Shown here piece by piece: positions 1-50,014 of a stretch of DNA of 50,293 nt (within the stretch, counting starts at the first letter, position 1; every line of letters starts with the position of its first letter). A program made the position numbers and the translations under genes. The stretch is taken from positions 1-50,293 of the IMG/VR virus record IMGVR_UViG_3300028044_000972; one strand, written 5' to 3'. Origin of the DNA: a virus. Below the pieces are notes generated by a model. That model saw only the letters and a list, made by a program, of their open reading frames with translations. It did no database searches and was not told the origin of the DNA.

Positions 1-3000
1 CTCCAACCGCTTCTATTTGTGCAAAAGATTGCGTTGTTACACCTTTTTTGCCCATTGCCTTTGATGCATACAAAAGTTCCAAATATGCAGTTCTTCCGCT
101 TCCTTTTTTAAAAGATTGGCTCCATTGAATAAACGGATAAGTTTCGGCGTTTTGCAAAGCAAAACCGCCATTTTTAGTTTCAAAAATATCCATGTAGTCC
201 GAAGAATCTCGGCCGCCATAATTTTTTGATTTGTTTTCTTTCCACAAAGACTTCGGATCTTTCGACACTCTTGGGTCAGGTTTTGCTAAATCGTCCACGC
301 CGCCGAGGTAGCCTTGGTTCTCCTCGTACTCGCGGAGCAGGCGGTCGGTGTCGAGGGTGCGCACGGGGGCCACCTCCGGCATCGCCTGCCCGCGGGTGCG
401 GCCTGTTGCTGCACCTTGCGGAGGTCTCGCCGCCGACACAAAGATGTCGTCAGGATTGTCCACCAGCCACAGCTTCTTGCCGTCAATGTCCATCGTCTTC
501 GGGTTGCGCAGATACGCCTCGACGACCACCGGGTTGGCTGGCTCGTTGACCTGCTTGGCGGCGTCACGCAGGCGAGCGGCGAGATCCTTGGGGGTGCGCT
601 TGGCGAGGTCATTGAAGTAGCTGGCCAGTTCGTCCATGTCGTCCACATAGCGCACGTTGAACTCTGGCAGTTCGCTGACATCAGCAAACTCGCGCAGCTT
701 TAGGCCAGCCTCCATGCGGGCGCCAAGGTCGCGCATCACGTCATTGGCGCTGTCCACGGCAGCCTGCGCCGAGTCGATGGGCGCGGCAGCATAGCCGTCT
801 GCGGAGGCGACATCGTCACTGAAAGAAAAGCCGCCGCGGGAAATGCCCGAGCTGCGGGCGCGATACTTGGGGTCGAACTTGCGTCCCTTGAAGTCGGGCG
901 AGCCGTGGTAGACCGGGCCGACCAGCCCTCTGCGGCGCGCTTCGTCTGGCGTGATGGTGATGTCCGGCATAGCCTGTCCACGCACCTCCGGCATCGCCAT
1001 GCCAGCCTGCGGGAGGGCGCTGGGCATGCGGTTGTTGTTGATTTTGTCGTAGTCGAAGAAGTAGCCGGTGCGGCCGGTCGGCTTGGCATCGTTGAGCCGG
1101 TCCACGCGCCAAGCACGGATGCTGCCGCGCGGGTTGAGGTCCGAGTACAGCGGGTTGGCTGTGCGCTGCACTGCGGTGCCGGTGCCGATGAGGCCGTTGA
1201 GCATGTCCCGCTTCTGCTGTCCGATGGTCATCTCGCCGGGCCTGCCGTTGCGGTGGTTGGCGAGGTAGGTCTTGAGGTCGGCCTCCACCTGCCGCATGTC
1301 GTTGTTGAAGAGCCCGAGGTCGCCCTTGTTGATCGCCTTCATGGCGGACGCGCGGAAGGCGTTGAGGTCAAGCGAGGCGGCGAGCAGGTGGTTGGCCTTG
1401 GTCACCTGCCAGCCAAACGGCACGGTCTCGCGCTGGATGGCGCGCACGTTGCCCAGGTTGGTTACGCGGTAGCGTCCCGAGGCTCCGGTGCCGATGGCGT
1501 TGTAGTCGATGTCCCAGCTGCCGCCCTCGGCGCGGCTTTGCTCCATGGAGCGGGCAAACTCGCGGACGTGCTTGGGGAAGTTGGTGAAGAAGTCGAACTG
1601 CGGCGGCAGCACCGGCCCTCCGACCACCTCGCGGCCGTTGACCTTGCGTTTGCCGAACTCCTGCGAGTTGACCGGGACAAACTTGCGCGCATCGTAGAGC
1701 GTCTTGATCTGCGCGCTGCGGGCGTTCTCGGTGAGGTTGACCGTCTCCTGCGCCTTCATGGTGTAGGTGCCGTCTGGGCGTTGAACCATGAAGTCGTTCT
1801 CCAGGACTCCGTTGCCCTCATCGCGCAGCTTCACATGCGTGCTGCGGGCCAAGTCCTCCGGCTTGCTGCTGCGGGCCAGCTCCACGCCGCGCAGCTCCTT
1901 AGCCCCGGCTTCCTCGAGGCCGGCGAGGTACTGGTCGTAACTACGCACGTACTCACGCACCCGCTTCTGCATGATGCGGTCTTGGAAAAGAGGATTGTCG
2001 CGGAAAAGCACCGAGGGGCTGTCCATTAGCTTGCCGGTGCCCGGGTCAAGGCGAGCGCCCATGACCTCCAGAACGCGCCCGCCGGCCGACAGCATGGACT
2101 CGGCGAGGCGGGGGAACAGTGCGTCACGGCGGACGGCGCGGAAGTCGATGGCCGGAGCCTCGGAGGCGAACGTCTCGGCGATGATCTCGTCGCGTGCCCA
2201 GTCCAGCGCGTCCTCGCCCTTTTCGATGCTGCGCTGGGAAAGCTCTTCGACACGCTGGTCAATAAGACGCTGCCGCGCCTGCTCAGAAACCGGCTGACCC
2301 TTCAGCACGTCCGCCAGCGTTGTCTTGCCGCTGGATACGTCATTGATCTGCGCCTCAGTCAAGTTGACCGGGGCGTCCTCGATGGCGCCGACCAGGATGT
2401 CATTGTCCACCAACCGCGTTGCATATTCCCTGCCGCGCGCCGCCACACCGTCCGTTGCATACTGCTGGTTGACTAGGTTTCGCAGGTCATTGCGCGGCTG
2501 ACCACCGAGGATGTCGCTAGTTAGGATGGCGTGGCCGATTTCGTGCGGGACAATGCGCGTGGGCGACAAGTCCTGCGCCAGTCGTTGGTTTGCCGACACC
2601 GTGTCTCCCGCCTTGACCAGCAGCCGGATGCCCTGTGGCACATGCGTTGAGTCCACCGTGCCGTCCGCCGCGGTGATGTCGATTACGTTGCCGCCCTTGT
2701 CCGCGTCCGGCCTTACAGACACCTTGCCGTCCACCGGAGCCGTGTGCCCCATGTTGACAAAGATCCTCGCCGATCCGTTTGCGTCCTTTTCGATGTAAAG
2801 GCCCGCCGCCGTCTCGCCGCCCTCCGCGCGAAGGTCGGTGTTGGCCCGGTAGTCCTGGCCGCGGAGCGGGATAAATTTGACCTTGTTGCGCAGCACGCCC
2901 TGCATGGCCGCCAACCGCGAGAGGCTGTCGTGCGAAAGGGACATGAGGGACGCCGCGTCGCCATTGCTTTCAGTCACATCGACCAGCATTCTGGCGATGT

Positions 3001-11652: not shown

Positions 11653-11656
11653 ATAA

Positions 11657-12244: not shown

Positions 12245-12247
12245 TGC

Positions 12248-12548: not shown

Positions 12549-12552
12549 AATG

Positions 12553-14302: not shown

Positions 14303-14304
14303 CT

Positions 14305-14622: not shown

Positions 14623-14638
14623 AGGTTTTAGTAGTTGG

Positions 14639-34740: not shown

Positions 34741-34787
34741 GGACCTGTTCCGGCGGCGCCAGTTAACGTCCTGGCCAACACACCACC
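34741..34787. repeat. 47-bp exact direct repeat, copy 1
   Basis: Identical to 35005-35051, starting GGACCTGTTCCGGCGGCGCC. Both lie in the non-coding part of the inserted segment and are separated by 217 bp. Confidence 0.9.
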
Positions 34788-35145: not shown

Positions 35146-35173
35146 TTGACATAACCCAACGATTGGTTATTGT
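35146..35173 (+). promoter_or_regulatory. Promoter of the moron gene with operator-like repeat
   Basis: TTGACA (35146-35151), a 16-nt spacer and TATTGT (35168-35173). A near-palindrome AACC(C)AA...TTGGTT fills the spacer and could be an operator. Transcription would begin about 3 nt before the ATG at 35183, so the message may be leaderless. Confidence 0.65.
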
Positions 35174-35182
35174 GATGGCGTT

Positions 35183-35554
35183 ATGACCACCACAAACACA
35201 ACACGTCAGGCTGCCGCAACGCTCGGCAGCATCACCAGCGAATCCAAAGCGCGGGCCGCCCGTCAGAACGGGCTCAGAGGAGGCAGACCAGCTGCTCTGA
35301 CAGGAGGCCGCGCTGCATTCGCCGCAGCCTGCGCCGAGGCGCATTTCAAAAGCGGGGTGCACGATCCCTGCGTGCGCTACTCCACCACTCGCGGGTTTCA
35401 CGTCGAGAGCAGTCTGGTTCCCGCTCGCCGCGGTGTCGTCTGGCAGGAGGAGGCTGTCTATCGGCTCGACACGCTGAAATACATTCCTCGCGTCGGTCAA
35501 TACCGCGAAGTGCGCGCGGAGATTTTGGAGCGTCTGGCCGAGGACGACAACTAA
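35183..35554 (+). CDS. Moron gene of unknown function
   Basis: 123 residues. The N-terminus SITSESKARAARQNGLRGGR is a motif found at the start of various small phage and plasmid proteins, probably helical and basic. The rest is mixed, with VGQYREVRAEILERLAEDDN as an acidic end. It lies opposite to its neighbours, with its own promoter upstream and a strong terminator downstream, and is flanked by direct repeats. This is the classic layout of a gene expressed from the prophage. Function not recognised; host-fitness or phage-exclusion roles are common for such genes. Confidence 0.7.
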   Translation: MTTTNTTRQAAATLGSITSESKARAARQNGLRGGRPAALTGGRAAFAAACAEAHFKSGVHDPCVRYSTTRGFHVESSLVPARRGVVWQEEAVYRLDTLKYIPRVGQYREVRAEILERLAEDDN

Positions 35555-35577
35555 CAGGCCACCAATACGTCGCAGCC

Positions 35578-35616
35578 AACCCCGCCCTGCTCCTGGTTGA
35601 GCGCGGCGGGGTTTTT
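35578..35616 (+). terminator. Rho-independent terminator of the moron gene
   Basis: AACCCCGCC (35578-35586) pairs with GGCGGGGTT (35605-35613) and is followed by TTTC. It starts 24 nt after the stop. Confidence 0.85.
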
Positions 35617-35634
35617 CGTGAGCGTCTCGCAAGC

Positions 35635-35988
35635 TCACCGCCACGACAGCGCCGGGCCCACGCCTGACAAGCCACGCAAATCAAAAAGCATCCGCTCCGG
35701 CACCGGCTCCCCATAGCGCACCATTTTCCGCTCCCAGGCCCCGCTCGAGTGCGTCACCGTAATCGCATTGACCCCCAAAGGATACCCCCGCGCCGACGAC
35801 CGCACCCGCACCGCGATCGGCGCCACCCCCACATAGCCCGAATTATGGTCCACCCAGCACCCCCGAGGAATCGTCTGCACCATCACCTCCTGGAAATGCT
35901 CCACCGGCGGAAAGGATGCCTCCGGCTCCGGCCTCGAAGCACACCCCGCGGCCGCCGCCGCCATAACGAGTAGCACGATCAGCCTCAT
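35635..35988 (-). CDS. Lipoprotein next to integrase
   Basis: 117 residues. The signal (LIVLLVMAAAAAGC) has a lipobox AAGC with Cys16. The mature part is beta-rich (GCWVDHNSGYVGVAPIAVRV; NAITVTHSSGAWERKM) and resembles small outer-membrane lipoproteins. Overlaps the integrase stop by 4 nt, so it is transcribed from the integrase operon. May be a lysogenic-conversion or superinfection-exclusion protein. A copy of its 3' end remains 1 kb downstream. Confidence 0.7.
   Translation of the reverse strand: MRLIVLLVMAAAAAGCASRPEPEASFPPVEHFQEVMVQTIPRGCWVDHNSGYVGVAPIAVRVRSSARGYPLGVNAITVTHSSGAWERKMVRYGEPVPERMLFDLRGLSGVGPALSWR
35649..35724. repeat. 76-bp direct repeat, copy B
   Basis: Lies inside the 3' end of the intact lipoprotein gene; partner of 34616-34691. 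Confidence 0.9.
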
Positions 35989-37139
35989 AACGGCGCCGCC
36001 TCCTCCAGCAAATCATGGTAATAATTCCACGTCGTCTTAAAATCCCCATGCCCCATCACCACCGCCGTCGCCGGCAGTCCGAACCGCTGGCAATACTCCG
36101 CCCCGAACTGTTTACGCAACTCATAAGCCCCCTTCGTCCGCTCCGGCACAAACTTACGCACGAACCCATTGATCGACCGCTCCGTCAACGTCACCGCATC
36201 CGTCATCGACGAACGAGGAATGACATAACCCTCCCGCGACTGCAGCGCCCGCCGCAACTGCCCCAAGATCCGCCACCGCACCGGCACATCACGCGCCGTT
36301 CCCTTCGGGAAATACCACGAATTATCCGGCAGCACCCGCCGCTCAAACGACCAGAGAAACGACCGCTGCCCCCGCTTCAGCCACTCCCAGCGCAGACCCG
36401 CCACCTCCGAATTCCGCAGCCCACACCAGCGCATCAGAGCATACACCGCCCAGATCCGCCGATCCTCCGCCGAGCTCGAGCGCCGCAGCACCTCCGCCGC
36501 CGCATCCATCGCCATTAGGCGGTCCCGCCCGATCAACTTATAGCCCCGCACCCGCAGCTCCCGCGCCGACGTCTCCGCCCGCACCAAGCGCAGCTCCGTC
36601 AAGTCCGGCAACACAAGCCCCGCCTGCGCATACCAACGCCGCGGCTGATCGGCAAACACCGCCCGGATCTGCCGCCAGGTCGAAGCCCGACCCTCCGGCG
36701 AGCCCGGCCACGCCCGGAGATACCGCTCCAACTCCTCCGCCGTCAGCCGAGTCATCGACACCGAGTCCGCATCAGCACCCGCGACCGCCCGCACCCACTT
36801 CCGCAGCGTCGAAGCATTATTGCCCCGCGTCAGCGCCGGCGACCGCTCCAACCACACCGCCAGCAAATCCCCCACCGACGCATACCCCGGGCGCTTCATC
36901 GTCGTCCGCGCCTGGCCATCGTGACGTAATTCGCGGGCAATAACTTTGGCTTGAACGAGAGCCTCCTTGTAATTAGTTTTGCCCGTCGACCGCTTAAACC
37001 GCCTGCCATGCACCTGCGCCCTGTAATAATACACCTCCGAGCCCGGCTCCTTGTAAATGGAGACCTCGGAATGCTTGCGTTGTTGTTGGGCCACTTGGGC
37101 CACTTTCAGTGCCACTTCCATGCGAACAAGATCGAACAA
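35985..37139 (-). CDS. int: Tyrosine recombinase (phage integrase)
   Basis: 384 residues. Residues ~85-180 form the SAM-like core-binding domain. The catalytic set is visible: Arg242 (GLRNSEVAGLRW), Lys279 (FPKGTARDV), Arg342 (YELRKQF), His364 (MGHGDFKTTW) and Tyr373/374 (WNYYHD). The box II His is replaced by Tyr339. It would recombine attP with a host att site. Three TTGGGCCACTT-type repeats lie within and upstream of its start, beside a tRNA-Arg-like sequence, so the att site is probably in 37.1-37.3 kb. Confidence 0.88.
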   Translation of the reverse strand: MFDLVRMEVALKVAQVAQQQRKHSEVSIYKEPGSEVYYYRAQVHGRRFKRSTGKTNYKEALVQAKVIARELRHDGQARTTMKRPGYASVGDLLAVWLERSPALTRGNNASTLRKWVRAVAGADADSVSMTRLTAEELERYLRAWPGSPEGRASTWRQIRAVFADQPRRWYAQAGLVLPDLTELRLVRAETSARELRVRGYKLIGRDRLMAMDAAAEVLRRSSSAEDRRIWAVYALMRWCGLRNSEVAGLRWEWLKRGQRSFLWSFERRVLPDNSWYFPKGTARDVPVRWRILGQLRRALQSREGYVIPRSSMTDAVTLTERSINGFVRKFVPERTKGAYELRKQFGAEYCQRFGLPATAVVMGHGDFKTTWNYYHDLLEEAAPL

Positions 37140-37323
37140 AGCCGAACAGCATGCAAGCCAAATTTCGAAGTAAGATCAGAAACCTCATCAGAGGGCAGTG
37201 GCCCTTTTATGAGAACTTACAAGAACAAACGCGGCCATAGCTCAATTGGATAGAGCATCTGACTACGGAGCAGGCCTTTTTCTCTGTCCGATTCCCTGTT
37301 GGGCCACTTTACGGACCACTTCC
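37086..37323. repeat. TTGGGCCACTT repeats around the integrase start
   Basis: Copies at 37088-37098, 37096-37107 and 37299-37310. The last two extend as TTGGGCCACTTT-N5-CCACTTCC. Candidate integrase arm sites or att repeats. Confidence 0.5.
37231..37274 (+). tRNA. tRNA-Arg(ACG)-like 5' half, incomplete
   Basis: GCGGCCATAGCTCAATTGG then ATAGAGCATCTGACTACGGA matches the acceptor 5' strand, D-arm and anticodon loop (CTACGGA) of tRNA-Arg. The anticodon stem has one mismatch, and no T-arm or matching acceptor 3' strand follows. So it is a remnant or an att half-site rather than a working tRNA. Confidence 0.55.
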
Positions 37324-37340
37324 CTGCCCCGTTTCGCCCT

Positions 37341-40300
37341 CTAAAATCTCCGGTTGAGATACTCCGCGGCCACCTGGTCCGGCGAGCCCTGCGGGATTTG
37401 CTTGAGCAGCTCGAGCGCCTTCTCCAGCTCCGCGATCTGCCCGCGGTTGCCGATGAGCAGACTTTGCGCGTAGCGAGTCTGCACCGTCCGCATGTTCCGC
37501 TCATTGGCGAAATCCCGTTTTAGCGAATAATACTTCGCCACCCCCTGCATGCCCGAGAGCACGCCCATCCCTTTGCGCAGATCCTCCATGTAAGCCAGCT
37601 GCACCTGCAGATGCCGCAGCTGATCACTGCCCAGGTCCTCCGCGGGAAACTCCGGATCGCGCAGCATATTCCAACCCTTCGCCTTCAGCCGCTCATCGAG
37701 CAGCCGCAGCCGGTCCTCCACCGCCGTCACCGACCGCACCGCCTGGCTGCCGAAACCGATCGGATCGCGGACAAACAACCGCCCCACGAACGGCACATCC
37801 GCCATCTCCATCATCGGCCGGCCCCGGTCGATCGACTCCGCCAGGCGCAGCGTCTCATCCGCCTGACGCGAGAGCGCCTGTTGCACGATATATTGCAACT
37901 TCGCTGGCGAGTAATTCATCATCGTCCCCACCTTCCGGTAAAACTCCGGCGTTGTGCTGTAGTATTGCTCACTCGCCGGCAGCTGCACCATCCACGGCGC
38001 CACGATATGCTTCTGGCGAAACGTCGACCAATTCATGTTCGCCTCCATGATCGTCGCCAGCTGCGGGCCGAAGAACTGCAGCCCGCTCCCCGGGTCCACG
38101 ATCCGTTTCAGCAGCATGCCCGCCGTCCGGTCCGCGTCCACCTTCGGCCGCCCCAGGAGATCATCCATCGTCGCATTATAAACCACCGAGCCCATCACGC
38201 CCTCCGGCCCGTAGGGAAACGGCACCGAGAACCCCGCCAGATCCATGAACGACAGCCGATCATCCACCACCCGTTGACGTTCCCGCTCCTTCTCCTCCTC
38301 ATCCATCATGAGGTAGCGAGCGATCGCCGCCCCGCCGAACATCACCGGTATCATCACCAAGAGCCGCGTCCACGCCGTCCCCCGCACCGCCGGGTCCGGA
38401 TCGGAAAGTTTTTGTGCCACATTGCGCACGCCCTGCAGCATCGGATTGAGGAACCCCGGGATGCTCATGGCAATTTTCGCATCGGCAATCCCCGAGTGCT
38501 CATTGAACTGCCCGCTCGCCGTCCAATACTTCGCCAGCGCCTCCTCATCCGTCGCCCCCCGCTGCAGCGCCGCCACCGCCGCACCCTCACGGCCGGCCGT
38601 CTCGAAGAACGCCGCCATCGCCCGCCCACCCGTCACCAGGTTGATCAAATCCCCCGTCTTCCAGATCGGAAACAACCAATTACTCGGCTGCAGCACCGTC
38701 GCCACCGTCTTGATCACCGGGTCCTTCGCCTGGCTCACATAGAAACCCTCACTCAACCACTGCCAGATCGCCCCGTGCTTGATCGAGGCCAGCATCTCCT
38801 GCTCGCTCGGCTGCACCCGCGAAAGCAGCAAACCCTCCGAGAACACCTGCGGATACTTCTTCGTAAATTTATTGACCACGCCCTTCGTATGCGCCCAGCC
38901 CGGCACCCAGCCGATCGGGTCCGGATTGAGCAACGTCTGCGTGAACGTATCGCGGAACAAATTCCTCAACGCAAAGACCGCACCCTGCGTGATGTTCCGC
39001 TTCCAATTCTGCGTCATCGGCCCCACCAGCCAGGACGCCGCCTTACCCATCTTCGACGCCGTCTGCGGAGAAGCAAAGAGCCCGAAGATCGCCGGATCAC
39101 CCAGCTGGTAATACTCCCGCACCCCATCCCGCAGCAGCGACACCACATTCACGTCCGTCGGTTTCACCGGCCGCCACACATCACGGAAGCTCCAGGAGAG
39201 ATTCACGTCCTCCGCCTTCACCTCCGGCCGGAAGCCCAGCACCTTCTCATAGGCATCCCCGATCGACTTCATCACCCAGCCCAGCGCCTCCTCCTTCGAG
39301 ACCGACGCCGCCGCCTTCATCGGCATCTTCATCTTCACCATCGTCGAGCCCGCCAAGATCCGAGCCTCCGCCGGCAGCGACAAGTCCTTCGCCACCGCCG
39401 CCATATTGTCATAGAGTTTCAACCCGAAGCGATTCCAGTAGTAAGCCTCGAACATCTCCCGCGTCCGCTCCTCCGTCACCTCATCGATATTCCGGATCGC
39501 CTCCCCCGAGCCCCGCGCCCGATAGACCCCCGCCGACATATCGCCCCGCCCGCGGCCCGCCGCGCCGCGGCCCGCCGTCATCACCCGCGGCAGCGGCCAA
39601 TAGCCAGGCCTCGCCCCCTGCATCCGCGCCCGGTCCATCCCCGAGATCAGCCCGCCCGCCTCCTTCACCTCCAGGATAAGGTCATGGAAGCGCGACTGCT
39701 CCTTATACATCCGCGTAAAATTTGGAATATCCTGCACCGCCATCGCCACGATCGCCTTCAAGTCCTCCGGCAAGATCCCCTCCCGCATCCCCGGATATTC
39801 GAGGCCCCCATTCTCCCACCGGTTCAGCGACTCCTGCGCCCACGCCGCCTGGTCAAACTGCGCCAACTTCGACGCCGGCACCTTCTTCCGCAAGTCCGTC
39901 CAGGACTCGCCCGTCAGGTAGCGAAAACTCCCATCCTTCTCCACAATGCGCAACCCCTTCGACGTCCCCGTCCCACTGATCGCCAGCTGCGTCTCCGCCC
40001 CGATCGAGAGGATCATGTTGTAAGCCGACATCAACGGCGTCAGATTCGTCGACCGCACCAGCCGCGCCTTAGTCAGCGCCGCCTTGTAAGCCGTCTCCGT
40101 CTCCTTCCGCTGCTTGATGATCGCCCGCGTGATCTTCCGATCCAGCGACGACACCGGCGCCCCCGAAGCGATCGCATTCACCGCCGCCTCGCCCCCGCGG
40201 ATGATCGCCCCGATCAACTCATTGGCCGAAGGCCGCACATTCGGCGGCGCGTTAAACATCGCCCACCGCGTCGCCACATCCTGCCCCTGGAAAGCATTCA

Positions 40301-43300
40301 CCGCCCGCGCCGCATCCCGCAAGAGCTTCGCCATGCCCGGATAAAACCGCTCCGCCGCCGCCGAGATCGCCGCCGACACCTGCAGATTCTGCACCGTCGC
40401 CGGGTCCGTCAGCAGCAGCCGCGTCCACTCCGCCACGCCCTCACCCCTCCGGTAGCTACGCTGACCCTCCGGCGAGAGCGACGCCGGCGGATCACTCGCC
40501 ATGCTGCCCGGCCGATTCGTCAGCGCGATCAGCTCCGCCGCGTGCGGCACGAAGACATCCGGCAACCGTGCCCGCAGCAAATATTCCAACCCATGCCCCG
40601 CCTCATGGAAATTGATCTGGCTCTGCGTCTCCCGCGTGTAAGCCACATGATTCGCCGGCTTATAGTGCGCCGGATGCGTCCGCGACGTCTGCGTCGTCGA
40701 CCGCCGCATCTCCAAGCGCACCGCCTCATTGACGAAGTCCACGATCGACCGGAACCCCCAGCGTTGTCCTGGTCGGAAATTCTCCACCCCCTTGATCAGC
40801 CGGCGCCCCGCCGAAGTCTCCCCCCGAGCCAGCACCCAATCCGGAGTCTGGAGCGCCGCCATCCCCACCGGAATCGCCCCCGGCGGCACCTGCGCCCCCC
40901 CACCCGACCGCACCGTAGCCGGCGGCGTCAACGGATCACTCGACACCGACCCCGGCGGCTCCATCGCCCTCGAGCTCACCGCATACGGAGCATCCGGCAT
41001 CGCCTGCCCGCGGGTTTGCCTGTTGACATCTTTTGGCTGCGTGGTAGCTTGACTTTGGTTTGATCTAACCGCCGCAAGGCGTGAAGCCACCGCTTCGAGA
41101 GGCCCGACGGAAACGTCGGGCTTCTGTATTTTAGGGCGAGGCAGCGATACCCCAATGCGCCCTTCAATGTCTGCCAAAACGCGATCCGGCGCTTGTAGCC
41201 AATCTCCGCGCTTATTTGGCGTCACAAAGTCTTGAATTGCCGCCGTGCTTTTAGAGAAGGCTGATACGTCGGCATGGTCGCTTATTCTCACCGAAACTGA
41301 TGCCTGCTCAACAACTCCAGCATCATCGTCCAAGTCCCAAGCAAAATTGCTGGTGTCACGCTTGTCCTGCACACCGGCATCGTAAAGCCGCTTGCCAAGC
41401 GCTGGCTCGAAATCAATCACAACGTCCATATACATGGAGTTGCTTTTGCTACTGCCCTTGATTCTGGAAAAACTTACACCCGCCACTCCATCTTGACCGC
41501 GCAGCGTTTTTGCGCGCGAAAGACTGTCCCGCATTGCGTCTCGTTCTATCTCGGGCCGAGCGGCGTCTGCCACTTCTGCGCCAACTTCAAGCAATCCTTC
41601 TGCTGCATCTTGCGCCGTGCTATAGGGTCCAAGCTCTCGCTCGCCGGCATCTACGAAATACGTTCCCTTGTTTGTATCAAGCGACACATTTAAGTCTGGC
41701 GTCAAGCGCCAGCTGCGGATGGCTCCATCGGATTCCGTGGGCTCCCCAAAAATTTGCTCTGGTACATCCGGCATTCCCCGAGATCCTGCCACAGGACCAT
41801 CCGGCATCGCCCCCGGCGGCACCTGCGTCCCCCCACCCGACCGCACCGTAGCCGGCGGCGCAAGGGTCAAGTCCGGCCGCTCCTCCACCCGTGGCGCCGG
41901 CGTTGTAGCCGCGGCAGTCTCTGCCGCGCCAGGCATTTGTGGCCGTGCCCCCCGCATCTCCAGCGGCACATCCTCCATGCTTTGCGTCGCCATGCCGAAA
42001 ATTTCCCGCCCCGACCGCAACCGATTACCCAGCAGCTCGATCAGGTCCGCCTCCGTCTCCACCCGGAAGCCCTTCGCCTTCAGCGCCATGGCCATCTCAT
42101 CGAGATCCATGCCATCCCGGCGGAAGAGCTTATTGATAAAGACCCCCTTCTGGTTATCGCCCCCCTTGCCCTTGCCCGCGCCCTTTGCCTCCTCATAGAG
42201 CGCCTTCAGCTCGCCCGACCACACCGCCCGCTTCGCCCCCGACTTCGGCGCCGGCAGTCCGCCCAGGTCGATCACCGCCGCCAGCAACTCCTCCGCACCC
42301 GCGTCCGCCATACTCTCCCGATAGTCCGCATCCTGCCCGCCCAGGTATTCCTCATAATCCCGCAGCGTCTGCGCATTCAGCGTCGCCGTCCCCGTCGCCG
42401 GGTCCAGGTCATAGAACGGCACCGACAAATCATAAACCTGGAACGCCTTCACCGACACCGGCTCCCCCGCATCGATCGCCGACTTCACGATCTGCAAATG
42501 CTCCGAGAGCAGCGCATTCCAGTTATCCGTCTCCGTCTCCTCCAGGTCGATCCCCCGCTCATTCGCCGTATCCAGCGCCCAATTAAAAGGCTCCGCCATC
42601 GCCGCCGAGACCGCCCGCGGCACCGCCACGGCCGCCGAGGCCGCCGGCCCCGGCATCGGAATCGTCACCGTCCCCGAAGGCAGGACATTGACCGGCGCCG
42701 TCCGCGGCACCGAAACATCCGCCGCCGCCGCTTTCCCGGGCGCTGGCAAAGCCTGTGGCACGTCCGCCTTGGCCCGAGCCACTGCACCCGCCGGCAGCAT
42801 CACCGGCACGCGGTAGGGCACGCGAGCCGCCGCACGGCCCACCGAAGGCACGAGGCCCGCCACCGAAGTCGTCGGCACCTCCACCTCGAGCGGACCCGTC
42901 CGCACCCCGCCCGCCGTATCCATCCGGGCAATGGCCGCCGAGATCGGCGGCTGCGCCTCCCAGACCAGCTTCGTCTCCGCCGCCGTCAGCGGCGTGCCCG
43001 CCTTCATCTTCGCCGCCACCGCCGCCACATCCTTCGCCCTGGCCATCCGGTTGTTGAGGAAAAATCCACCCGTCAAAGCACCCACGCCCGCCGCCGCGGC
43101 AAATCCCCCCGGCGTGATCTCCTGGCCCCGCACCGCCGCATCGATCGGATAAGCCACCACACCCGTCCCGGCGCCCAGCCCAGCCGCCGTCCCCGCCGTC
43201 CGAGCCACCTGCGGCAACCCGCCATCCTGGAAAGCCGTCCGCAATCCCCGGGCGCCCTGCGCCACCGAGACCGGCAGCGCCAGCGCCACCATCCCCATCT

Positions 43301-44348
43301 CGCCCCCCGCCTTGTGCATCGGAAACAACTCCGCCGCCTTCATCACATCGTCGTATTCCGTAAAATGTTCGCCCAGCTTCTTGTAGATCGCGTCGTAGCC
43401 CACGCCCGCCGCAATGCCGCCGCCGATCGCGCCCGCCACCCCGCCCACCACCGCCGCCGCCGGTGCAAAGGGAGCACCCGCGACCGTCGCCAAGGCCGCC
43501 GCTGACGCACCCGCCGCCAAGAGCTTCGCTCCCCCGGCCGCGCCCACCGTCATCGCCCCGCCGCGGCCGGCGCCCTGCAAGATCGCCAAGAGCCGAGGGT
43601 CCGCCTGCGCCTTCTCCTCCAGCTTCCGCCGGTCATCCATCACCTTGAAAATTTTCGCCTCGTCCGCCTTGATCTTCTCATAGTTCGACCGCGGCAAGAT
43701 CCCCGCGGCAAACGCCTCCTCGACACCCTGGGTAAATCGCTCCGGCGACGACTGATCAAAGACAATCTGCCCACCCTCCGAAGGCACCAGCCGCGGCCGC
43801 CGATTCAGCACCGGCTCAGCTACCCCGGGCGCCGCCGCCATCGGTCCCCGCGGCGCCACCGGCGCCATCCCATCGAGCCCCTGCTCCGGTCCCGAGGTCG
43901 GGTCCACGACGAGCGACCCCGTAAATTGAAACGCCGGTCCCTTCGCATCGAAAGTCACATCCGTCCCATCCGCCGCCTCCGGCGTCGTCACCGGCTTCGG
44001 AGTCGGCCGCGGCGCCGGCAGCTTAATCTCCGGCGCCCGTTGCTCCGCCCCCTGGAGAAAGGCCAACGCCTCCTCATCCGATCCGAACCCCGGCCCGCTT
44101 GTCTGCTCCGCCTCCAAGGTAGGGCGCGGCGTCTGCGGCAAATCCTCATCCTCCTGCGGCAGCCGCGGTTCCCCCCGCGCATCGAGGTCATTGAGGAAGG
44201 CGGCATCCGCCGCTTGGACCAGCCGATCCGGCCCCGGGTCCATCTCCACCGGAGGTTCCGGTGCAATATCCAACTGCGGGTCCGCCACCGGACCCCCGTA
44301 GAGAAAGTCCAGCGCCTGCTGGTCAGATTGGAATGCGGCGAGGGCCAT
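37341..44348 (-). CDS. Giant polyvalent protein 2 (zincin, LPD38-like)
   Basis: 2335 residues. Residues ~260-330 and ~390-430 are Ala/Gly-rich hydrophobic. A Pro/Ala-rich linker at ~830-861 (RSGGGTQVPPGA, then MPD) precedes a ~250-residue lower-GC domain (862-1112, starting VPEQIFGEP) closed by RGQAMPD (1113-1119) and a second RSGGGAQVPPGA copy. HEAGH at 1248-1252 is a zincin motif. The C-terminal half resembles large polyvalent-protein domain 38, with RNLFRDTFTQ near 1790. Similar proteins are thought to be ejected with phage DNA. It is a homologue in position, not in full sequence, of giant protein 1. Confidence 0.85.
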   Translation of the reverse strand: MALAAFQSDQQALDFLYGGPVADPQLDIAPEPPVEMDPGPDRLVQAADAAFLNDLDARGEPRLPQEDEDLPQTPRPTLEAEQTSGPGFGSDEEALAFLQGAEQRAPEIKLPAPRPTPKPVTTPEAADGTDVTFDAKGPAFQFTGSLVVDPTSGPEQGLDGMAPVAPRGPMAAAPGVAEPVLNRRPRLVPSEGGQIVFDQSSPERFTQGVEEAFAAGILPRSNYEKIKADEAKIFKVMDDRRKLEEKAQADPRLLAILQGAGRGGAMTVGAAGGAKLLAAGASAAALATVAGAPFAPAAAVVGGVAGAIGGGIAAGVGYDAIYKKLGEHFTEYDDVMKAAELFPMHKAGGEMGMVALALPVSVAQGARGLRTAFQDGGLPQVARTAGTAAGLGAGTGVVAYPIDAAVRGQEITPGGFAAAAGVGALTGGFFLNNRMARAKDVAAVAAKMKAGTPLTAAETKLVWEAQPPISAAIARMDTAGGVRTGPLEVEVPTTSVAGLVPSVGRAAARVPYRVPVMLPAGAVARAKADVPQALPAPGKAAAADVSVPRTAPVNVLPSGTVTIPMPGPAASAAVAVPRAVSAAMAEPFNWALDTANERGIDLEETETDNWNALLSEHLQIVKSAIDAGEPVSVKAFQVYDLSVPFYDLDPATGTATLNAQTLRDYEEYLGGQDADYRESMADAGAEELLAAVIDLGGLPAPKSGAKRAVWSGELKALYEEAKGAGKGKGGDNQKGVFINKLFRRDGMDLDEMAMALKAKGFRVETEADLIELLGNRLRSGREIFGMATQSMEDVPLEMRGARPQMPGAAETAAATTPAPRVEERPDLTLAPPATVRSGGGTQVPPGAMPDGPVAGSRGMPDVPEQIFGEPTESDGAIRSWRLTPDLNVSLDTNKGTYFVDAGERELGPYSTAQDAAEGLLEVGAEVADAARPEIERDAMRDSLSRAKTLRGQDGVAGVSFSRIKGSSKSNSMYMDVVIDFEPALGKRLYDAGVQDKRDTSNFAWDLDDDAGVVEQASVSVRISDHADVSAFSKSTAAIQDFVTPNKRGDWLQAPDRVLADIEGRIGVSLPRPKIQKPDVSVGPLEAVASRLAAVRSNQSQATTQPKDVNRQTRGQAMPDAPYAVSSRAMEPPGSVSSDPLTPPATVRSGGGAQVPPGAIPVGMAALQTPDWVLARGETSAGRRLIKGVENFRPGQRWGFRSIVDFVNEAVRLEMRRSTTQTSRTHPAHYKPANHVAYTRETQSQINFHEAGHGLEYLLRARLPDVFVPHAAELIALTNRPGSMASDPPASLSPEGQRSYRRGEGVAEWTRLLLTDPATVQNLQVSAAISAAAERFYPGMAKLLRDAARAVNAFQGQDVATRWAMFNAPPNVRPSANELIGAIIRGGEAAVNAIASGAPVSSLDRKITRAIIKQRKETETAYKAALTKARLVRSTNLTPLMSAYNMILSIGAETQLAISGTGTSKGLRIVEKDGSFRYLTGESWTDLRKKVPASKLAQFDQAAWAQESLNRWENGGLEYPGMREGILPEDLKAIVAMAVQDIPNFTRMYKEQSRFHDLILEVKEAGGLISGMDRARMQGARPGYWPLPRVMTAGRGAAGRGRGDMSAGVYRARGSGEAIRNIDEVTEERTREMFEAYYWNRFGLKLYDNMAAVAKDLSLPAEARILAGSTMVKMKMPMKAAASVSKEEALGWVMKSIGDAYEKVLGFRPEVKAEDVNLSWSFRDVWRPVKPTDVNVVSLLRDGVREYYQLGDPAIFGLFASPQTASKMGKAASWLVGPMTQNWKRNITQGAVFALRNLFRDTFTQTLLNPDPIGWVPGWAHTKGVVNKFTKKYPQVFSEGLLLSRVQPSEQEMLASIKHGAIWQWLSEGFYVSQAKDPVIKTVATVLQPSNWLFPIWKTGDLINLVTGGRAMAAFFETAGREGAAVAALQRGATDEEALAKYWTASGQFNEHSGIADAKIAMSIPGFLNPMLQGVRNVAQKLSDPDPAVRGTAWTRLLVMIPVMFGGAAIARYLMMDEEEKERERQRVVDDRLSFMDLAGFSVPFPYGPEGVMGSVVYNATMDDLLGRPKVDADRTAGMLLKRIVDPGSGLQFFGPQLATIMEANMNWSTFRQKHIVAPWMVQLPASEQYYSTTPEFYRKVGTMMNYSPAKLQYIVQQALSRQADETLRLAESIDRGRPMMEMADVPFVGRLFVRDPIGFGSQAVRSVTAVEDRLRLLDERLKAKGWNMLRDPEFPAEDLGSDQLRHLQVQLAYMEDLRKGMGVLSGMQGVAKYYSLKRDFANERNMRTVQTRYAQSLLIGNRGQIAELEKALELLKQIPQGSPDQVAAEYLNRRF
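40873..40927. repeat. 55-bp in-gene direct repeat, copy 1
   Basis: Differs from 41806-41860 at one base. Encodes PPATVRSGGGAQVPPGA on the minus strand. Together they bracket a lower-GC 878-bp section of giant protein 2. Confidence 0.9.
41806..41860. repeat. 55-bp in-gene direct repeat, copy 2
   Basis: Encodes PPATVRSGGGTQVPPGA. Partner of 40873-40927. Confidence 0.9.
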
Positions 44349-44356
44349 GGACGCTA

Positions 44357-45013
44357 TTATCGCCCACCACGCAACATCTGGACCGCCTGGGCCTCACTGA
44401 TCTGCCCCGCCAGGAAGGCCGCCCGCACCGCCTCCGGCGTTGAAAGCGCCGGCGCCGCCGTCGGCACCGGAACATTCGTCCCCGCCATCGCCGGCATCGG
44501 AGTCGCCGTAGGCTCTGGCGTCGGGCTCGGAGTCGGCGAAGCCGCCGGCGCCCCGCCGCCGAAGCCAAAGAAAGAAGCAATCCCACTTGGTTCCTCCGCC
44601 GCCGCCCCCTGCGGACCCGCCATCTGCGCCAGCGCATCGGCCAAGGCATTCGATTTCGGGTCCATCTCAAACTGATTCGTCGTGCCCTTGATTATAGCCG
44701 GCGCCACTTCCCCCGTCAGCGGGTCGAAGGTGTAAGCCTTGCCATCCTTCCCCTTCGAGAGTTGCTTCGAGCTCCGTTGCACCATCGGCTGCGCCGAATT
44801 CGGCGACGACATAAAGTAAGGCGTCACCTCCTGCGACACCGCATTGGTCGCCATCCCGGTCGTAGGAGTGAACGATTTTTCGGCCGACTGCACATACCTG
44901 GCATATTGGTCTCTGAACTTGGCCAACTCCTTGCCTTTGATCGATTGACCCTCCGCGTAGCCCAACACGGAGCGTCCGTATTCTTGGGCCGACATGATTT
45001 GTGGTTCCGCCAT
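44357..45013 (-). CDS. Putative virion/ejection protein upstream of giant protein 2
   Basis: 218 residues; AAGGAG lies just upstream of the ATG. The N-terminal half is polar and helical (GKELAKFRDQYARYVQSAEK). The middle has a Pro/Thr-rich linker (ASPTPSPTPEPTATPMP), and the C-terminal ~35 residues (STPEAVRAAFLAGQISEAQA) form a short helical hairpin that may bind a partner. Place and composition fit an ejection-associated protein. Confidence 0.6.
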   Translation of the reverse strand: MAEPQIMSAQEYGRSVLGYAEGQSIKGKELAKFRDQYARYVQSAEKSFTPTTGMATNAVSQEVTPYFMSSPNSAQPMVQRSSKQLSKGKDGKAYTFDPLTGEVAPAIIKGTTNQFEMDPKSNALADALAQMAGPQGAAAEEPSGIASFFGFGGGAPAASPTPSPTPEPTATPMPAMAGTNVPVPTAAPALSTPEAVRAAFLAGQISEAQAVQMLRGGR

Positions 45014-45022
45014 AATGTCTCC

Positions 45023-45553
45023 TTAGAACGTAAAGCTATCCCCGCCGCCTGCGCCGGCCCCCGTTCCATCGCCCCGACCACCAAAGGCATTCGACTGTTG
45101 GTTCATGTAATTCAAGCTCATCAGCTTCGAGCCCGTGTTCTGCATCCCGATGATGTTGTCCCCGATCATCGCCTGCTCGCGGGGATCGCGCTTGAGGAAG
45201 TCCTCGAGGTAGCCGGGGTCAAAGCCCAGTTGCTGCCCGTGCCGCTTCATGAAGTCGCCATAGGCGGTGCCCTTTGCCTCCAAGGCTTTGTTGTTGGCGT
45301 AGGCGCTGATGAAGCTACCGAGGACACTGTCATCGCTCCCCCCGCCACCCTCGCCGCCCTGCATCGCCATTGCCGCCCCGGCCGGTCCACCCATGGCGAA
45401 GCCCGCCACGGCCCGTCCTGCGGTGCGGATCGGCTTCGAGATGTCCGAGCCCAGCTGTTGCATCATCGCCGCGTTGGCCTGGGCGGCCCCGAGCTGTCCC
45501 GAGGCGAGGATTTCCCCGCTGCGGTCATTTACTGTAGGTGCATATTGAAACAT
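45023..45553 (-). CDS. Putative virion protein, Gly/Ala-rich
   Basis: 176 residues from ATG at 45553. The first ~70 residues are Ala/Gly-rich and helical, with possible membrane-active stretches (GFAMGGPAGAAMAMQGGEGG). The rest is polar, with AYGDFMKRHGQQLGFDPGYL. The Gly-rich C-terminus ends GDSFTF. By position it pairs with the 160-residue gene of phage 1. Confidence 0.6.
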   Translation of the reverse strand: MFQYAPTVNDRSGEILASGQLGAAQANAAMMQQLGSDISKPIRTAGRAVAGFAMGGPAGAAMAMQGGEGGGGSDDSVLGSFISAYANNKALEAKGTAYGDFMKRHGQQLGFDPGYLEDFLKRDPREQAMIGDNIIGMQNTGSKLMSLNYMNQQSNAFGGRGDGTGAGAGGGDSFTF

Positions 45554-45575
45554 AGTTTTAGTTATTCTGTTAAGG

Positions 45576-46646
45576 TTAAGCCGCCTTCTTCGGGGCCATA
45601 AGTTCTTGCGCGAGGGCGGCACCGATCACGGCCGGCTTGATCGCCAACCGCTTCTTGCCCTGGTGCTCCACCACTTCCACCGCCTCCGGCAGCACCTTCT
45701 GCACGTCCTGCGCCATGAAGCCGACCCGCTTCTGGTCCTCGCCCTTGTAGGCAAACTCATAAGCCTTGAGCCCGAGCACACCCGCCGCCTGGCCCAGCGG
45801 TTTGATGTTCTTCTTCATCCGCTTGTCCGAGAAGATCGACCCACCGATCTGCCCAAACATGCCCATCATCGCCGCGTTATTCATCGCCCCCGCCTGCATC
45901 GAAGCGCCCTGCAGCGCCGCGTTGTTGTTCAGCACCGAATTGCGGTTCGAGGCGAGCATATTCGTGTTGAAGGTTTCGACGCCCCCCGCCGTGCGCAGCG
46001 AGCCGCCAAAGATGTCACCCACCTGCGCCGTCGTATTAGCCAGCGTGCTTTGCCCCAGCCCAAAGGCCGGCCCGATCGATTGACGGAAAGGGTCAAGCTG
46101 GTTGTAAGCACCCGCCAGACCAACCCGCCGCTGTCTGCGCGCAAGGTCCATCTGGTTGACGCCGGCCGCAAAGCCGCGCCGCTGGTCCTGGCGACCAGAG
46201 GCATAGGCGTCCCGGTTAAGGATCTCCGCGCCCAGCGCAGCGTTCCCGGTCGCCATGCCGCGTGCCGCCATTCCGGCCCTTGCCGACTGCGTTGCCATAC
46301 GCTCCTGCTCTGGGCTCAGCGAGCGGCCGAGGGCCAACTCCGCTTCCGCATCCTGCTGGAGCCGCGCCTCGATGGCATTGGGCGCCGAGGCTGCTTGCAA
46401 CTCCTCGCCGACTACACCCTGCGTGCGTTTTAGATATTCGTTGTCTAATTTGCCAGCGAGTTGGTCGGCCGTCTGAAATTGCAGCGCAGTGTATTGCGGG
46501 TAAAGCCGCTTGATCGACTCCTCTTCGGCGGCTATCTGTGCATTGGCTACACGGATCGACGCGGCGGCCATTTTGTCGTAGTCGATTGGTGCCGGTGCCG
46601 GTGGCAGTGGTTGTGGCGCGGGTGCGCTTGGTCCTTTTCCTCCCAT
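45576..46646 (-). CDS. Virion protein with C-terminal S74 peptidase/chaperone domain
   Basis: 356 residues; AGGAGG upstream of the ATG. A Pro-rich start, helical centre (GMAARGMATGNAALGAEIL) and an S74 intramolecular chaperone domain from ~272: SDKRMKKNIKPLG with the Ser273/Asp274/Lys275 set, and VGFMAQDVQKVLPEAV. In spikes this domain drives trimer folding and then cuts itself off. Here it is attached to a non-fiber protein. The phage 1 homologue at 7315 lacks it. Confidence 0.85.
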   Translation of the reverse strand: MGGKGPSAPAPQPLPPAPAPIDYDKMAAASIRVANAQIAAEEESIKRLYPQYTALQFQTADQLAGKLDNEYLKRTQGVVGEELQAASAPNAIEARLQQDAEAELALGRSLSPEQERMATQSARAGMAARGMATGNAALGAEILNRDAYASGRQDQRRGFAAGVNQMDLARRQRRVGLAGAYNQLDPFRQSIGPAFGLGQSTLANTTAQVGDIFGGSLRTAGGVETFNTNMLASNRNSVLNNNAALQGASMQAGAMNNAAMMGMFGQIGGSIFSDKRMKKNIKPLGQAAGVLGLKAYEFAYKGEDQKRVGFMAQDVQKVLPEAVEVVEHQGKKRLAIKPAVIGAALAQELMAPKKAA

Positions 46647-46650
46647 AGTT

Positions 46651-46995
46651 TTATCCTCCTGTTTTTTTTATGATCTTGTCCCAGCGGTAGACGCGGGGCT
46701 CAAATTGTTGACGGCGATGCCATGCGACATATTGGTGCGGCTTCGGCGCCACGCGCAGAAACTCGCCAACAGCATTTGCGTGCCCAGCAGCAGCAGCCAG
46801 GCGCACGAACCAGCAGTTGGGATCGCCGCCTTCAAAGGTTTGCTCCTCCGCATTCCAGCGTGTTTCGCTGGCCAGCAGGAAAACCTTCGGCGAGTTCCAG
46901 ACGTAGCCGCTGGAGAGATGCTCGCCGAGGAGTTCCCAGAAGTCCGTTGTGTCGTGGGCGTCTTGCCATTGCTTTGCTTTTTGCCATGGGGTCAT
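46651..46995 (-). CDS. Conserved tail-module protein, unknown function (copy 2)
   Basis: 114 residues from ATG at 46995, 2 nt after the fiber stop. Homologue of the 120-residue protein at 8097 with the same position. No motif that names a function. Conserved Trp/Pro positions (MTPWQKAKQW; GGDPNCWFVRLAAA) suggest a structured core. Confidence 0.7.
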   Translation of the reverse strand: MTPWQKAKQWQDAHDTTDFWELLGEHLSSGYVWNSPKVFLLASETRWNAEEQTFEGGDPNCWFVRLAAAAGHANAVGEFLRVAPKPHQYVAWHRRQQFEPRVYRWDKIIKKTGG

Positions 46996-46997
46996 GC

Positions 46998-47642
46998 TTA
47001 AAACTTCACGCAATACAACAGGGCGATGTTTGCGGGGCGGGTTTCGTCTGCTGCGGTTCCGGGAACCATTCCGACATCGTATATCCCTGGGCCCGCCCCC
47101 TGGAGAATCGCGCCGCCGCCGCCGCCGGCGGCAATATTTGAATATCGTATTTGGTGATCGTGATTCTTTATGCCGTCTTGCTCTTTAAGAGCAAATGCCT
47201 TGTTGTAAGTTGTCCCGCTGATCGTCTGCGACCCGCTGCCACGCACAAAGATACCGCGCAGGTCGGGCAGGTTAAAGGTCGTGCTGCCGTTGCCACCGCC
47301 GTACGTTGTTCCAATCGCAGCAAACAAATCCGCGTATGTGCCAACTCGCAGGACCGGATCACCATTGGCCGCAAGCCAACCAGCAGGCGCCGAGTTCATA
47401 GCGAAGGGCATGACGGCACCGGCGGGGAGCAACGACTGCTGTGTCACTGTGGCCAACTTCGCCGTAGTCACGTTGGCATCCAAAATGTTCGCCGTGGTCA
47501 CCGCATTCGAAGCAATGTCCGCCGCCACAATGCTCCCAGCCGTCAGCGCCACGGTGCTCTGGCTAAGTTGGTTTAGCTTGACCGGCGTGACGTTCTCGCC
47601 AGAGACAAAGGTTTTGATCGGGGTGATTGTGAATGTTGCCAT
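46998..47642 (-). CDS. Tail fiber with phage tail collar domain (copy 2)
   Basis: 214 residues. The N-terminal attachment part (VSGENVTPVKLNQLSQSTVA) is like the phage 1 fiber. The second half is a collar domain: PAGWLAANGDPVLRVGTYAD, STTFNLPDLRGIFVRGSG and an ETRPANIALLYCVKF end. Collar domains form trimers at fiber tips or baseplates. Likely receptor-binding, and different from the phage 1 fiber. Confidence 0.85.
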   Translation of the reverse strand: MATFTITPIKTFVSGENVTPVKLNQLSQSTVALTAGSIVAADIASNAVTTANILDANVTTAKLATVTQQSLLPAGAVMPFAMNSAPAGWLAANGDPVLRVGTYADLFAAIGTTYGGGNGSTTFNLPDLRGIFVRGSGSQTISGTTYNKAFALKEQDGIKNHDHQIRYSNIAAGGGGGAILQGAGPGIYDVGMVPGTAADETRPANIALLYCVKF

Positions 47643-47644
47643 AA

Positions 47645-50014
47645 TTAAGCTGCGTTGCGGGTGTCGGTTTGCGGGAGACCTTCAAGTGCCGCCTCGATGG
47701 AGACGTTGCGAATCTCGGGACGCTGGAGGTTGGTCTGAAAGATGATTTCGGCGGCGTGGGCCTTGCGCCGGATTGGCTGCTTGAGCGTGTAATCATCGCC
47801 GACGCCGGTGTCGTTGCTCTGCCCGGGCCCCAGGATGATCTCGGCGTCCGGGTTGATGAGGTTGGCCTTGACCGTGACTGAGCCTGCATTGGGCAGGACA
47901 ACATCGCTCAGGGCGCGGGTGAAACGCTTGCTGTGCATGTTTCCCATGTTGTAGCGGCGCGTCTTAATTGTGCCGGAGTATTGGTCCACGTTGCTGCCGC
48001 TCGGCTCGTCGTCTGTGCCGTCAGCCTTCTCGTCGAGGAGGTAGAGCTTGCCGGTGCGGCGGACGCTGAAAACGCGGCGAACATCGCTGTAGGTGCTGAC
48101 GATTAGGGCGTCCACGCCGATGTCGTAAATGTCGCGGCTCTCCCATTGGTCATTGAGGGCGTTCCAAGTGATGACCAGATCGTTCGTGTCGTCCGGTGAA
48201 TCGAGGGTCGGGACGGCCAAGGTGTAGCGGTTGTTGTGCCAGAGGCCAAAGGCCCGCTGCACCTTGCTCTGGTCGATGCGCTCAAACTGGTCGGCGACCG
48301 GGGCACTCAGCGGGCGGGTGTCGCCGCGCAGCTTGAGGTCAAGCTGGGTGTCCAGGCGGTAGACACCGGCGTCCGAGAGGAAGAAGACATAGCGGCCGGC
48401 CGTGGCGATGGAGTTGCGGGCCGAGCAGCCAATCTCGTCGGTGATCAACTCCAGCTTGGCGGCCGCCGTGTCGATGGCAAAGCCGCTGCCGTCTGTGCTG
48501 GGGAACTGGGCCAGCGTGGCCAGCCAGATGCTCTTGCGGGCGAAGACCAAGGCGCTGCTCTCCACCCACGGATGCACGGCGACTATGTAATCACTGCCCC
48601 CGGCGCCGGCGCGGAAGGACTGCCAGAGGGGATCGTAGAGGTCGGCGTCGAGGTAGTCGCTAATGGCCACTTGGTCGCGGCCGTCAGGGATAATTAAGCG
48701 GTTCTGAATGTAGGCCGCCCACGGCACGCTGCGCATCTTCTTGTAGGTCGGACCTTCTGCCGGAATGCCGCCCGCCGCACGGACGAAGCTGCCGGTGCCG
48801 GTCCAGTAGATCGGCGGCTTGACGCGGCGAAGGCGCAGCCCCGCAGTTAGGTCGCTGGCCGTGCCACTCGGAACCGCAATGGTAAAGGTGTGGTCGGTCT
48901 TGGTAGCGACATCAAACTCATGCCCGTCCAAGGCCGCCGACGATCCATCAGTTAGGCGGACTCGGTCGCCCACAACGTAGCCGTGGCTTTTGCTGAAGAT
49001 GGTGCCGGTGGCGGCGCTGACCACGGCGCTGACCGGCGTGAGGGTGTGCGTTCCGCTTTGAGTGCCGGAGGTGTTAACGGCGGCTCCGCCGCTGGACGCG
49101 CTGATCTGAAGCGTGTCGGTCGCCTTGTTGATGACGTAATACACCGTGCCTGCCGTCACGCCGGTCGGCAAGGCGCCGGTCGTGCTGAAGACCACGGCCA
49201 TGCCATTCTCCAAATTGTGAGCAGCCCTTGTGACAATGGCCGGCGAGGCGATGGTCATGGTCGCCGCCCCCGCCTCGCTGGTTCCGCGCCCCACTTCGGC
49301 AAACGTGCCGGTCTGTGCCGCTTCCCGCAAAATGTAAAGTCGGTCAAAGGCTTGCACCACCGAGACATTGTCGGTCGGCTCAATGGTCTCATCGCCGGGA
49401 TAGCCCACCGTGACCACCGTGTCGGTCGGGCTGGTGTTCCGCCAGAGGTAGGCTTCGCTCGGCCCACACATCACGATATACTCGTTGGCGTTTTGGTAAT
49501 TCTGGGAAGCGAAGACGCCAGAGGCAAAGATGCCGCCGCCGTAGGTCGTCCTGACCAGCGGCCCCTTGTTGGCCAACAGCGTGCCGGTGGCGTTAGCGGT
49601 CGGCGTGCCGGTCATGGTGTAGTCAAAGGTCGTCCCGCTGGCGTTGGAGATGGCGAAGTCTCCGTTGTAGAAGGCGGCGTCGGCTCCGGTGGCGCCGGAG
49701 ATGTTGACCTGGCCGCCGTTACTGTAGCCGTGCGCGGCAGCCGTGGTCACGGTCGCGGTGGGTCCGCTAAAGGTGATCGAGGTGATCGCCTTGTCGGCGG
49801 CGAGGTCAAAGGAAAGGGTAAGCGGTTCGTCCGCTGTGCTGATCGCATCGGCCAGCCGCTTGGCCCCCTTGCGGGTCTGCGCCGTGCCGCGCTCCAAGCG
49901 CATGTTGACACTGTCTTGCAGCATGCCCGCTGGCAGGGTCAGCGGGTTTAGGCGCGAAGCAAAGCCAAGGAATCCTTGGTCGCCGTCACGTTGGACTGGA
50001 GAGTCGATGGCCAT
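47645..50014 (-). CDS. Tail nozzle / tubular tail protein (copy 2)
   Basis: 789 residues, homologous to the 666-residue copy at 9299 (same opening NMRLERGTAQTRKGAKRL, same C-terminus KRFTRALSDVVLP). Two extra beta domains are present: ~72-149 (AHGYSNGGQVNISGATGADA) and ~245-327 (AHNLENGMAVVFSTTGALP), the latter a very common phage surface module. A shared third insert lies near residue 344. Start overlaps the amidase stop (TAATG). Confidence 0.78.
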   Translation of the reverse strand: MAIDSPVQRDGDQGFLGFASRLNPLTLPAGMLQDSVNMRLERGTAQTRKGAKRLADAISTADEPLTLSFDLAADKAITSITFSGPTATVTTAAAHGYSNGGQVNISGATGADAAFYNGDFAISNASGTTFDYTMTGTPTANATGTLLANKGPLVRTTYGGGIFASGVFASQNYQNANEYIVMCGPSEAYLWRNTSPTDTVVTVGYPGDETIEPTDNVSVVQAFDRLYILREAAQTGTFAEVGRGTSEAGAATMTIASPAIVTRAAHNLENGMAVVFSTTGALPTGVTAGTVYYVINKATDTLQISASSGGAAVNTSGTQSGTHTLTPVSAVVSAATGTIFSKSHGYVVGDRVRLTDGSSAALDGHEFDVATKTDHTFTIAVPSGTASDLTAGLRLRRVKPPIYWTGTGSFVRAAGGIPAEGPTYKKMRSVPWAAYIQNRLIIPDGRDQVAISDYLDADLYDPLWQSFRAGAGGSDYIVAVHPWVESSALVFARKSIWLATLAQFPSTDGSGFAIDTAAAKLELITDEIGCSARNSIATAGRYVFFLSDAGVYRLDTQLDLKLRGDTRPLSAPVADQFERIDQSKVQRAFGLWHNNRYTLAVPTLDSPDDTNDLVITWNALNDQWESRDIYDIGVDALIVSTYSDVRRVFSVRRTGKLYLLDEKADGTDDEPSGSNVDQYSGTIKTRRYNMGNMHSKRFTRALSDVVLPNAGSVTVKANLINPDAEIILGPGQSNDTGVGDDYTLKQPIRRKAHAAEIIFQTNLQRPEIRNVSIEAALEGLPQTDTRNAA

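Follow-up and report, generated by a model that had tools for sequence, protein, structure and literature searches.

That polyvalent proteins vary in their architecture (PMC5512222), that toxin cassettes are moved by recombination (PMC3482391), and that phage mosaicism extends into single proteins (PMC10684548) is already known, and it is an old question whether phage mosaics arise through crossovers at short boundary sequences or through random joining followed by selection. Such boundary sequences have been proposed at mosaic joints, but they are usually not found (PMC3029335). The present analysis concerns a giant gene of the polyvalent type in the viral record IMGVR_UViG_3300028044_000972, all 50,293 nucleotides of which are referred to here as the window. 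A section of this gene with a lower content of guanine and cytosine (GC), which encodes a domain designated X, is best read as a domain cassette that can be swapped at one slot within a giant protein of the LPD38 type. Judging from the sequences compared, domains are probably exchanged among giant phage proteins through recombination at short stretches of shared linker DNA, and one such boundary word is found at dozens of joints within genes, at frequencies that can be tested.

The giant proteins treated here are like the polyvalent proteins (Iyer et al. 2017, PMC5512222) in being giant, multidomain, variable in architecture and encoded beside virion genes, and in the presence of LPD38, a HEAGH peptidase-like motif, and RadC, GNAT-like and ADP-ribosyltransferase-like domains. 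LPD38 scored above the cutoff in the window and in all five of the relatives scanned (L005, L008, L012, L017 and L022). The proteins have 2107-2797 amino acids (aa) and the HEAGH motif, and LPD38 occurs together with RadC in L005 and L008; the window protein, taken alone, has LPD38 as its sole Pfam match above the cutoff. The gene adjoins tail-fibre-like open reading frames (ORFs), with SU10-like capsid and portal genes in the same window, and the giant protein is predicted to be delivered, probably, together with the phage DNA.

With that of the window included, IMG/VR provided eight giant genes of this family that differ in what the slot contains; a backbone tree and the slot comparison covered all eight, the collinearity being read from a five-way alignment. 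In this alignment, only residues ~800-1146 lose collinearity, and the flanks are collinear. The slot holds domain X in the window and in contig IMGVR 3300028553_001342 (L003), which has an identical arrangement and is 100% identical to the window over 15.5 kilobases (kb). L004 has a stretch of 89 residues without a recognisable domain, that is, only linker, and L005 has RadC/JAB (PF04002, E=6e-28) plus a tail. L008 has a linker of the L004 type, a part that could not be assigned, one that is GNAT-like (called by reading the sequence, without a Pfam match), and RadC, while L012 has a 400-residue insert, and L017, L020 and L022 have short, distinct inserts. The RadC/JAB of the LPD38 phage protein lies at 8100-9120 in L005 and at 10001-10996 in L008.

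Every sister pair on the backbone tree differs in its slot content, at identities of 96-98% (window, L004 and L005), 95% (L017 and L020) and 84% (L008 and L022). The slot is one place of domain gain, loss or replacement in an otherwise collinear giant protein. The initial annotation had proposed that the domain might be lost or replaced without a frameshift, and this is borne out by L004, which lacks a domain, and L005, which has RadC instead, on backbones of 96% identity and always in frame; comparison at the slot also showed that the section is not present and collinear in all the relatives. Over 409 aa, the RadC cassettes of L005 and L008 have 72% identity, with backbones at 63%, and the greater likeness of the RadC part suggests, short of proof, that it was transferred.

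The self-search of the window matched the end of X to a site in the window's other giant gene, the common word being CGCGGGCAGGCGATGCCGGAT, which reads RGQAMPD. When IMG/VR was scanned with CGNGGNCARGCGATGCCGGA, 45 stretches were found, all of them within long open frames, which gave, once the repeats were removed, 44 joints in which 16 upstream and 24 downstream module families occur in 38 combinations. Beyond the window, some 40 phage contigs have the word in giant genes, which make up a second set. In these genes, modules of different kinds meet at this constant word of approximately 21 base pairs (bp), and the homology stops there: in 202 pairs whose upstream module is the same but whose downstream modules differ, the DNA identity is around 93% up to the word and around 27% after it, and in 27 reverse pairs, with the same downstream module, it is around 30% before the word and around 76% after it. 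The information content is at background within some 3 bp of the word, except for a weak preference for Ala-Ala-Pro codons before it, and 241 of the 790 interior ends of homology blocks fall at a seam in both sequences, as against the 11.5 expected.

The word also conserves rare codons. Among the codons left free by the search pattern, which are the only ones that these counts cover, GGG (usage 13%) is found in the seam in 15 of the 16 upstream families (P~7e-13), and GAT (usage 32%) in 22 of the 24 downstream families. A less biased check, in which loci were fetched by one 73-residue module rather than by the word, gave 27 informative loci out of 29, with the RGQAMPD end in 27/27 and the same 21 bases in 26/27, and with RAQAMPD, RGQAMPD, AQGMPD or RFMPD at the left edge. 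At 26 loci, this module links 9 families on its left with 14 on its right, in 20 combinations, and, given these seam variants and varied partners, it is therefore a cassette with a seam on each side. In L101 (3001-3213), this 73-residue module occurs as a solo small ORF with 70% identity, a possible free-standing cassette. Neither the giant proteins nor the common module of the seam set have a relative among the named phages. In giant protein 1 of the window (2-4720, minus strand), an ADP-ribosyltransferase-like VYHGSPDF module lies between two RGQAMP[DE] seams; the protein reaches the end of the contig within a module of lower GC, and its residues 658-717 match Apocytochr_F_C weakly.

The word may, on the other hand, be kept for the sake of the protein, as a flexible linker or a cleavage site (RGQAMPD/MPD, SGGGxQVPPG) for a peptidase such as HEAGH, with a shuffling that simply respects the boundaries, although this is somewhat doubtful as an explanation of the whole. 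The motif does lie at the module edges, the invariant HEAGH adjoins the slot, and the DdrB and DarA proteins of phage P1 are cleaved before packaging, peptidase domains being common in polyvalent proteins (PMC5512222). A constraint on the protein alone, however, leaves unexplained the rare codons that are kept across the upstream and downstream families, and the left-hand seams differ at the protein level. A protein-level reason can, in any case, be compatible with exchange at the DNA level at the same time.

A second possibility, held to be about as probable as the last, is that the joints arise through illegitimate recombination and selection for intact proteins, the word merely hitch-hiking with one very common module. 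A module of this type (REGRPVRGG...QRALQR) stands behind many joints, and the joints of the LPD38 slot fall at overlaps of only 8-10 bp, but the word also follows 15 other upstream families, precedes 10 downstream families that are never found beside the common module, and ends homology blocks far more often than expected. The RGQAMPD word might even be a dedicated intragenic assembly site, kept for the in-frame exchange of modules via a phage or host recombinase, which would rebuild the delivered giant proteins combinatorially across the population, including transfer between the RGQAMPD and LPD38 types, although this can be advanced only tentatively.

The initial annotation had centred on 55-bp repeats with one mismatch, in frame and at a spacing that is a multiple of three, which flank a lower-GC section, and all of these features are present. 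The copies lie at 40873-40927 and 41806-41860, and the full match covers 60 bp (40868-40927 and 41801-41860), with two mismatches and a longest exact run of 32 bp. The spacing of 933 bp is 3 x 311, both copies are in the frame of the minus-strand ORF 44348..37341, with the translations RSGGGTQVPPGA and RSGGGAQVPPGA, and exact 20-bp repeats appeared in 0/300 codon-shuffled versions of the gene. The core of the section (41060-41760) has 54.5% GC, and no other 701-bp segment of the gene falls below 60%, the mean of the gene being around 65-66%.

The further proposal, that homologous recombination from one repeat copy to the other itself drives the loss or exchange of the section, was not supported, and is unlikely even though the pair is 97% identical, in frame and long enough for recombination, and relatives without X exist. 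A single copy is found in L004, L005, L017 and L020, the sites without X have a different upstream linker, and the collapsed product of a crossover between the copies was found in none of the relatives compared. As the gene is on the minus strand, the copy at 41801-41860 (R1) is the one upstream of the domain. All the relatives have, after the slot, a version of the linker (S/T)DPLTPP...GGGA.VPPG, of which the other copy (R2) is the window's version, and the window lineage alone has R1 as an additional copy. The two copies have in common window-specific bases (TCGGGTGGGGGG and GGGGGCGAT) that are missing from L004 and L005, and the duplication is therefore recent, later than the split from these two. 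The pair is the scar of a duplicated downstream linker, not the general mechanism, and was rejected as a general exchange site, given that relatives have one copy; it could now permit the in-frame loss of X. A better candidate for a general joint, and one that the initial annotation did not note, is the RGQAMPD linker in which the X cassette ends on its 3' side.

Domain X resembles a seam-flanked cassette, with RGMPD on the left and RGQAMPD on the right, and a further MPD lies near its 5' edge, at 41799-41807. The left edge of R1 coincides with the GCCGCCGG overlap between the LTPP linker and a LAPP linker that is also found in L005, and the right edge of X coincides with an 8-bp overlap (GCCGGATG) between the RGQAMPD seam and the L005-type linker TPDAPY (linker B). 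In the mechanism proposed here, giant proteins would be put together from modules, with the joints in the linkers, and the shared linker DNA would be that of the RGQAMPD word, of the MPD-type linkers and of the SSDPLTPP..RSGGG.QVPPG linker of the slot. Recombination at these shared linkers, between phage genomes that are co-infecting or co-resident, would join domains in frame. In the window lineage, X would have come with the seam; it would have been joined on the right where the seam and linker B overlap (GCCGGATG, 8 bp) and on the left where LAPP and LTPP overlap (GCCGCCGG). Its arrival would also have produced the second copy of the downstream linker and hence the 60-bp repeat pair. A history in two steps, in which the RadC part would have been lost by LAPP/LTPP joining and X then gained together with linker B and R2, fits these edges.

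Homologues of X were found nowhere in Pfam, PDB sequences, phages, plasmids or IMG/VR apart from L003, and AlphaFold2 modelled X alone poorly (predicted local distance difference test, pLDDT, 54.7). A terminator-like hairpin of 12 pairs lies on the antisense strand inside X (41098-41125, plus strand), with a TTGACA hexamer some 75 bp before it; hairpins of this type number five in the region for 5.3 expected, and are hence not above chance. Rfam gave no match in the window at the gathering threshold, and only chance-level matches near the cassette.

Several points weigh against exchange at shared linkers as it is read here. The 44 joints were fetched using the word itself, and neither the joints nor the homology-block ends are independent counts. 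The searches with X found no donor of it, so that its route is inferred. The RGQAMPD word is not found in the LPD38-family relatives other than the window, and exchange in that family therefore uses other linkers or illegitimate recombination. Among the larger ORFs, Pfam and PHROGs revealed no general recombinase, only the tyrosine integrase. All the sequences compared are metagenomic contigs, and the slot and seam joints are known from these assemblies alone.

The window has about 1.3 genome lengths, apparently from two related phages placed head to tail. Its positions 1-15485 are 100% identical to contig 3300028557_000085, and positions 34769-50293 to L003, and the lysis and tail region occurs twice, at 11656-13147 and from 50013 onward, with 89-92% identity, 38.4 kb apart. 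This layout seems to reflect either tandem prophages or a chimeric assembly, and is without effect on the slot finding, because L003 repeats the slot. That contigs stitched together at the repeated word produced false combinations is very improbable, although the window itself seems to be a join and repeats can mislead assemblers, since the 21-bp word does not exceed even the shortest k-mers that assemblers commonly use, the joints are all in frame within open ORFs, separate contigs show the same combination (for example, L034/L048, L037/L046 and L060/L061), and the window's slot is repeated in L003.

The phage that carries the giant gene is SU10-like and uncultured, with an SU10-like major capsid protein and with the capsid and portal genes elsewhere in the window. 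The gene comes directly after the tail-fibre-like ORFs (45576-50014) and ahead of the tyrosine integrase gene (35985-37139). Beside the integrase gene there are a 47-bp exact direct repeat (34741-34787 and 35005-35051) and a 77-bp direct repeat of 95% identity (34615-34691 and 35648-35724), which are possibly attachment sites or otherwise related to the integrase. A search of 50,697 named phage records brought up no relative of the giant protein, and the scan of genome contigs gave a single weak match (31%, Marivirga), which was dismissed as chance.

Table. Positions of the features in the window, with the strand and the basis of each.
Feature	Position	Strand	Remarks
Giant polyvalent-type protein gene, 2335 aa	37341..44348	-	Uninterrupted ORF; LPD38 E=3e-12; homologous gene in other viral contigs
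LPD38 domain	37785..38231	-	Pfam PF18857
HEAGH zinc-peptidase-like motif	40593..40607	-	Immediately follows the slot; invariant across 5 relatives, alignment H56-H60
Hypervariable domain slot, residues ~800-1136	40941..41951	-	Five-way alignment; contents compared in 8 genes
Repeat copy R2, the conserved downstream linker of the slot (RSGGGAQVPPGA)	40868..40927	-	Linker version in all relatives
Linker B (APYAVSSRAMEPPGSVSSDPLTPP)	40928..40991	-	Common to the window and RadC-bearing L005
Seam CGCGGGCAGGCGATGCCGGAT encoding RGQAMPD, 3' end of the X cassette	40992..41012	-	DNA word found in 45 viral stretches
Domain X (PEQIFGEP...KDVNRQT), ~250 aa, lower GC	41013..41762	-	Homologue only in L003
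Seam-like RGMPD motif, 5' edge of X	41766..41780	-	Read in the sequence; AQGMPD/RAQAMPD variants are left seams elsewhere
Repeat copy R1 (ATVRSGGGTQVPPGAMP)	41801..41860	-	Upstream of the domain in the gene; window lineage only
Seam RGQAMPE in giant protein 1 (second phage in the window)	374..394	-	
Second seam RGQAMPD in giant protein 1	962..982	-	Before the ADP-ribosyltransferase-like VYHGSPDF module

Exchange at shared linkers would explain how giant polyvalent proteins change their set of domains so quickly, and these phages seem to put their large proteins together anew from parts. The word also offers a search string for the collection of modules of unassigned function which are probably delivered by phages into their hosts. 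A search of PMC for the string RGQAMPD returned no paper. In a limited literature, which is no proof of absence, no description was found of an intragenic word of DNA present repeatedly where many unrelated modules are joined, nor of LPD38 and RadC in one protein.

In the survey of polyvalent proteins, LPD38 was found only in proteins of the phage type and RadC only in those of conjugative elements (PMC5512222), unlike L005 and L008, which combine the two in one protein; the words "linker" and "shuffling" are both absent from the main text of that paper. The domain shuffling inside phage proteins described by Smug et al. (2023, PMC10684548) is similar to that seen here, and the main text of that study has neither "linker" nor "polyvalent". 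The polymorphic toxins (Zhang et al. 2012, PMC3482391) also have a constant body and an exchangeable module that is taken to result from recombination with cassettes, but in these toxins it is the C-terminal tip that is replaced, often with an immunity gene, whereas the present slot is internal, with around 1140 conserved residues after it, and the frame is needed on both sides. Finally, the boundary sequences proposed at phage mosaic joints (PMC3029335) are likewise short, conserved junction DNA put forward as a point of homologous crossover, and the RGQAMPD set does have the same short DNA at the junctions of different modules, with the homology ending there; unlike those sequences, however, a single word is found here at many joints, and inside a reading frame.
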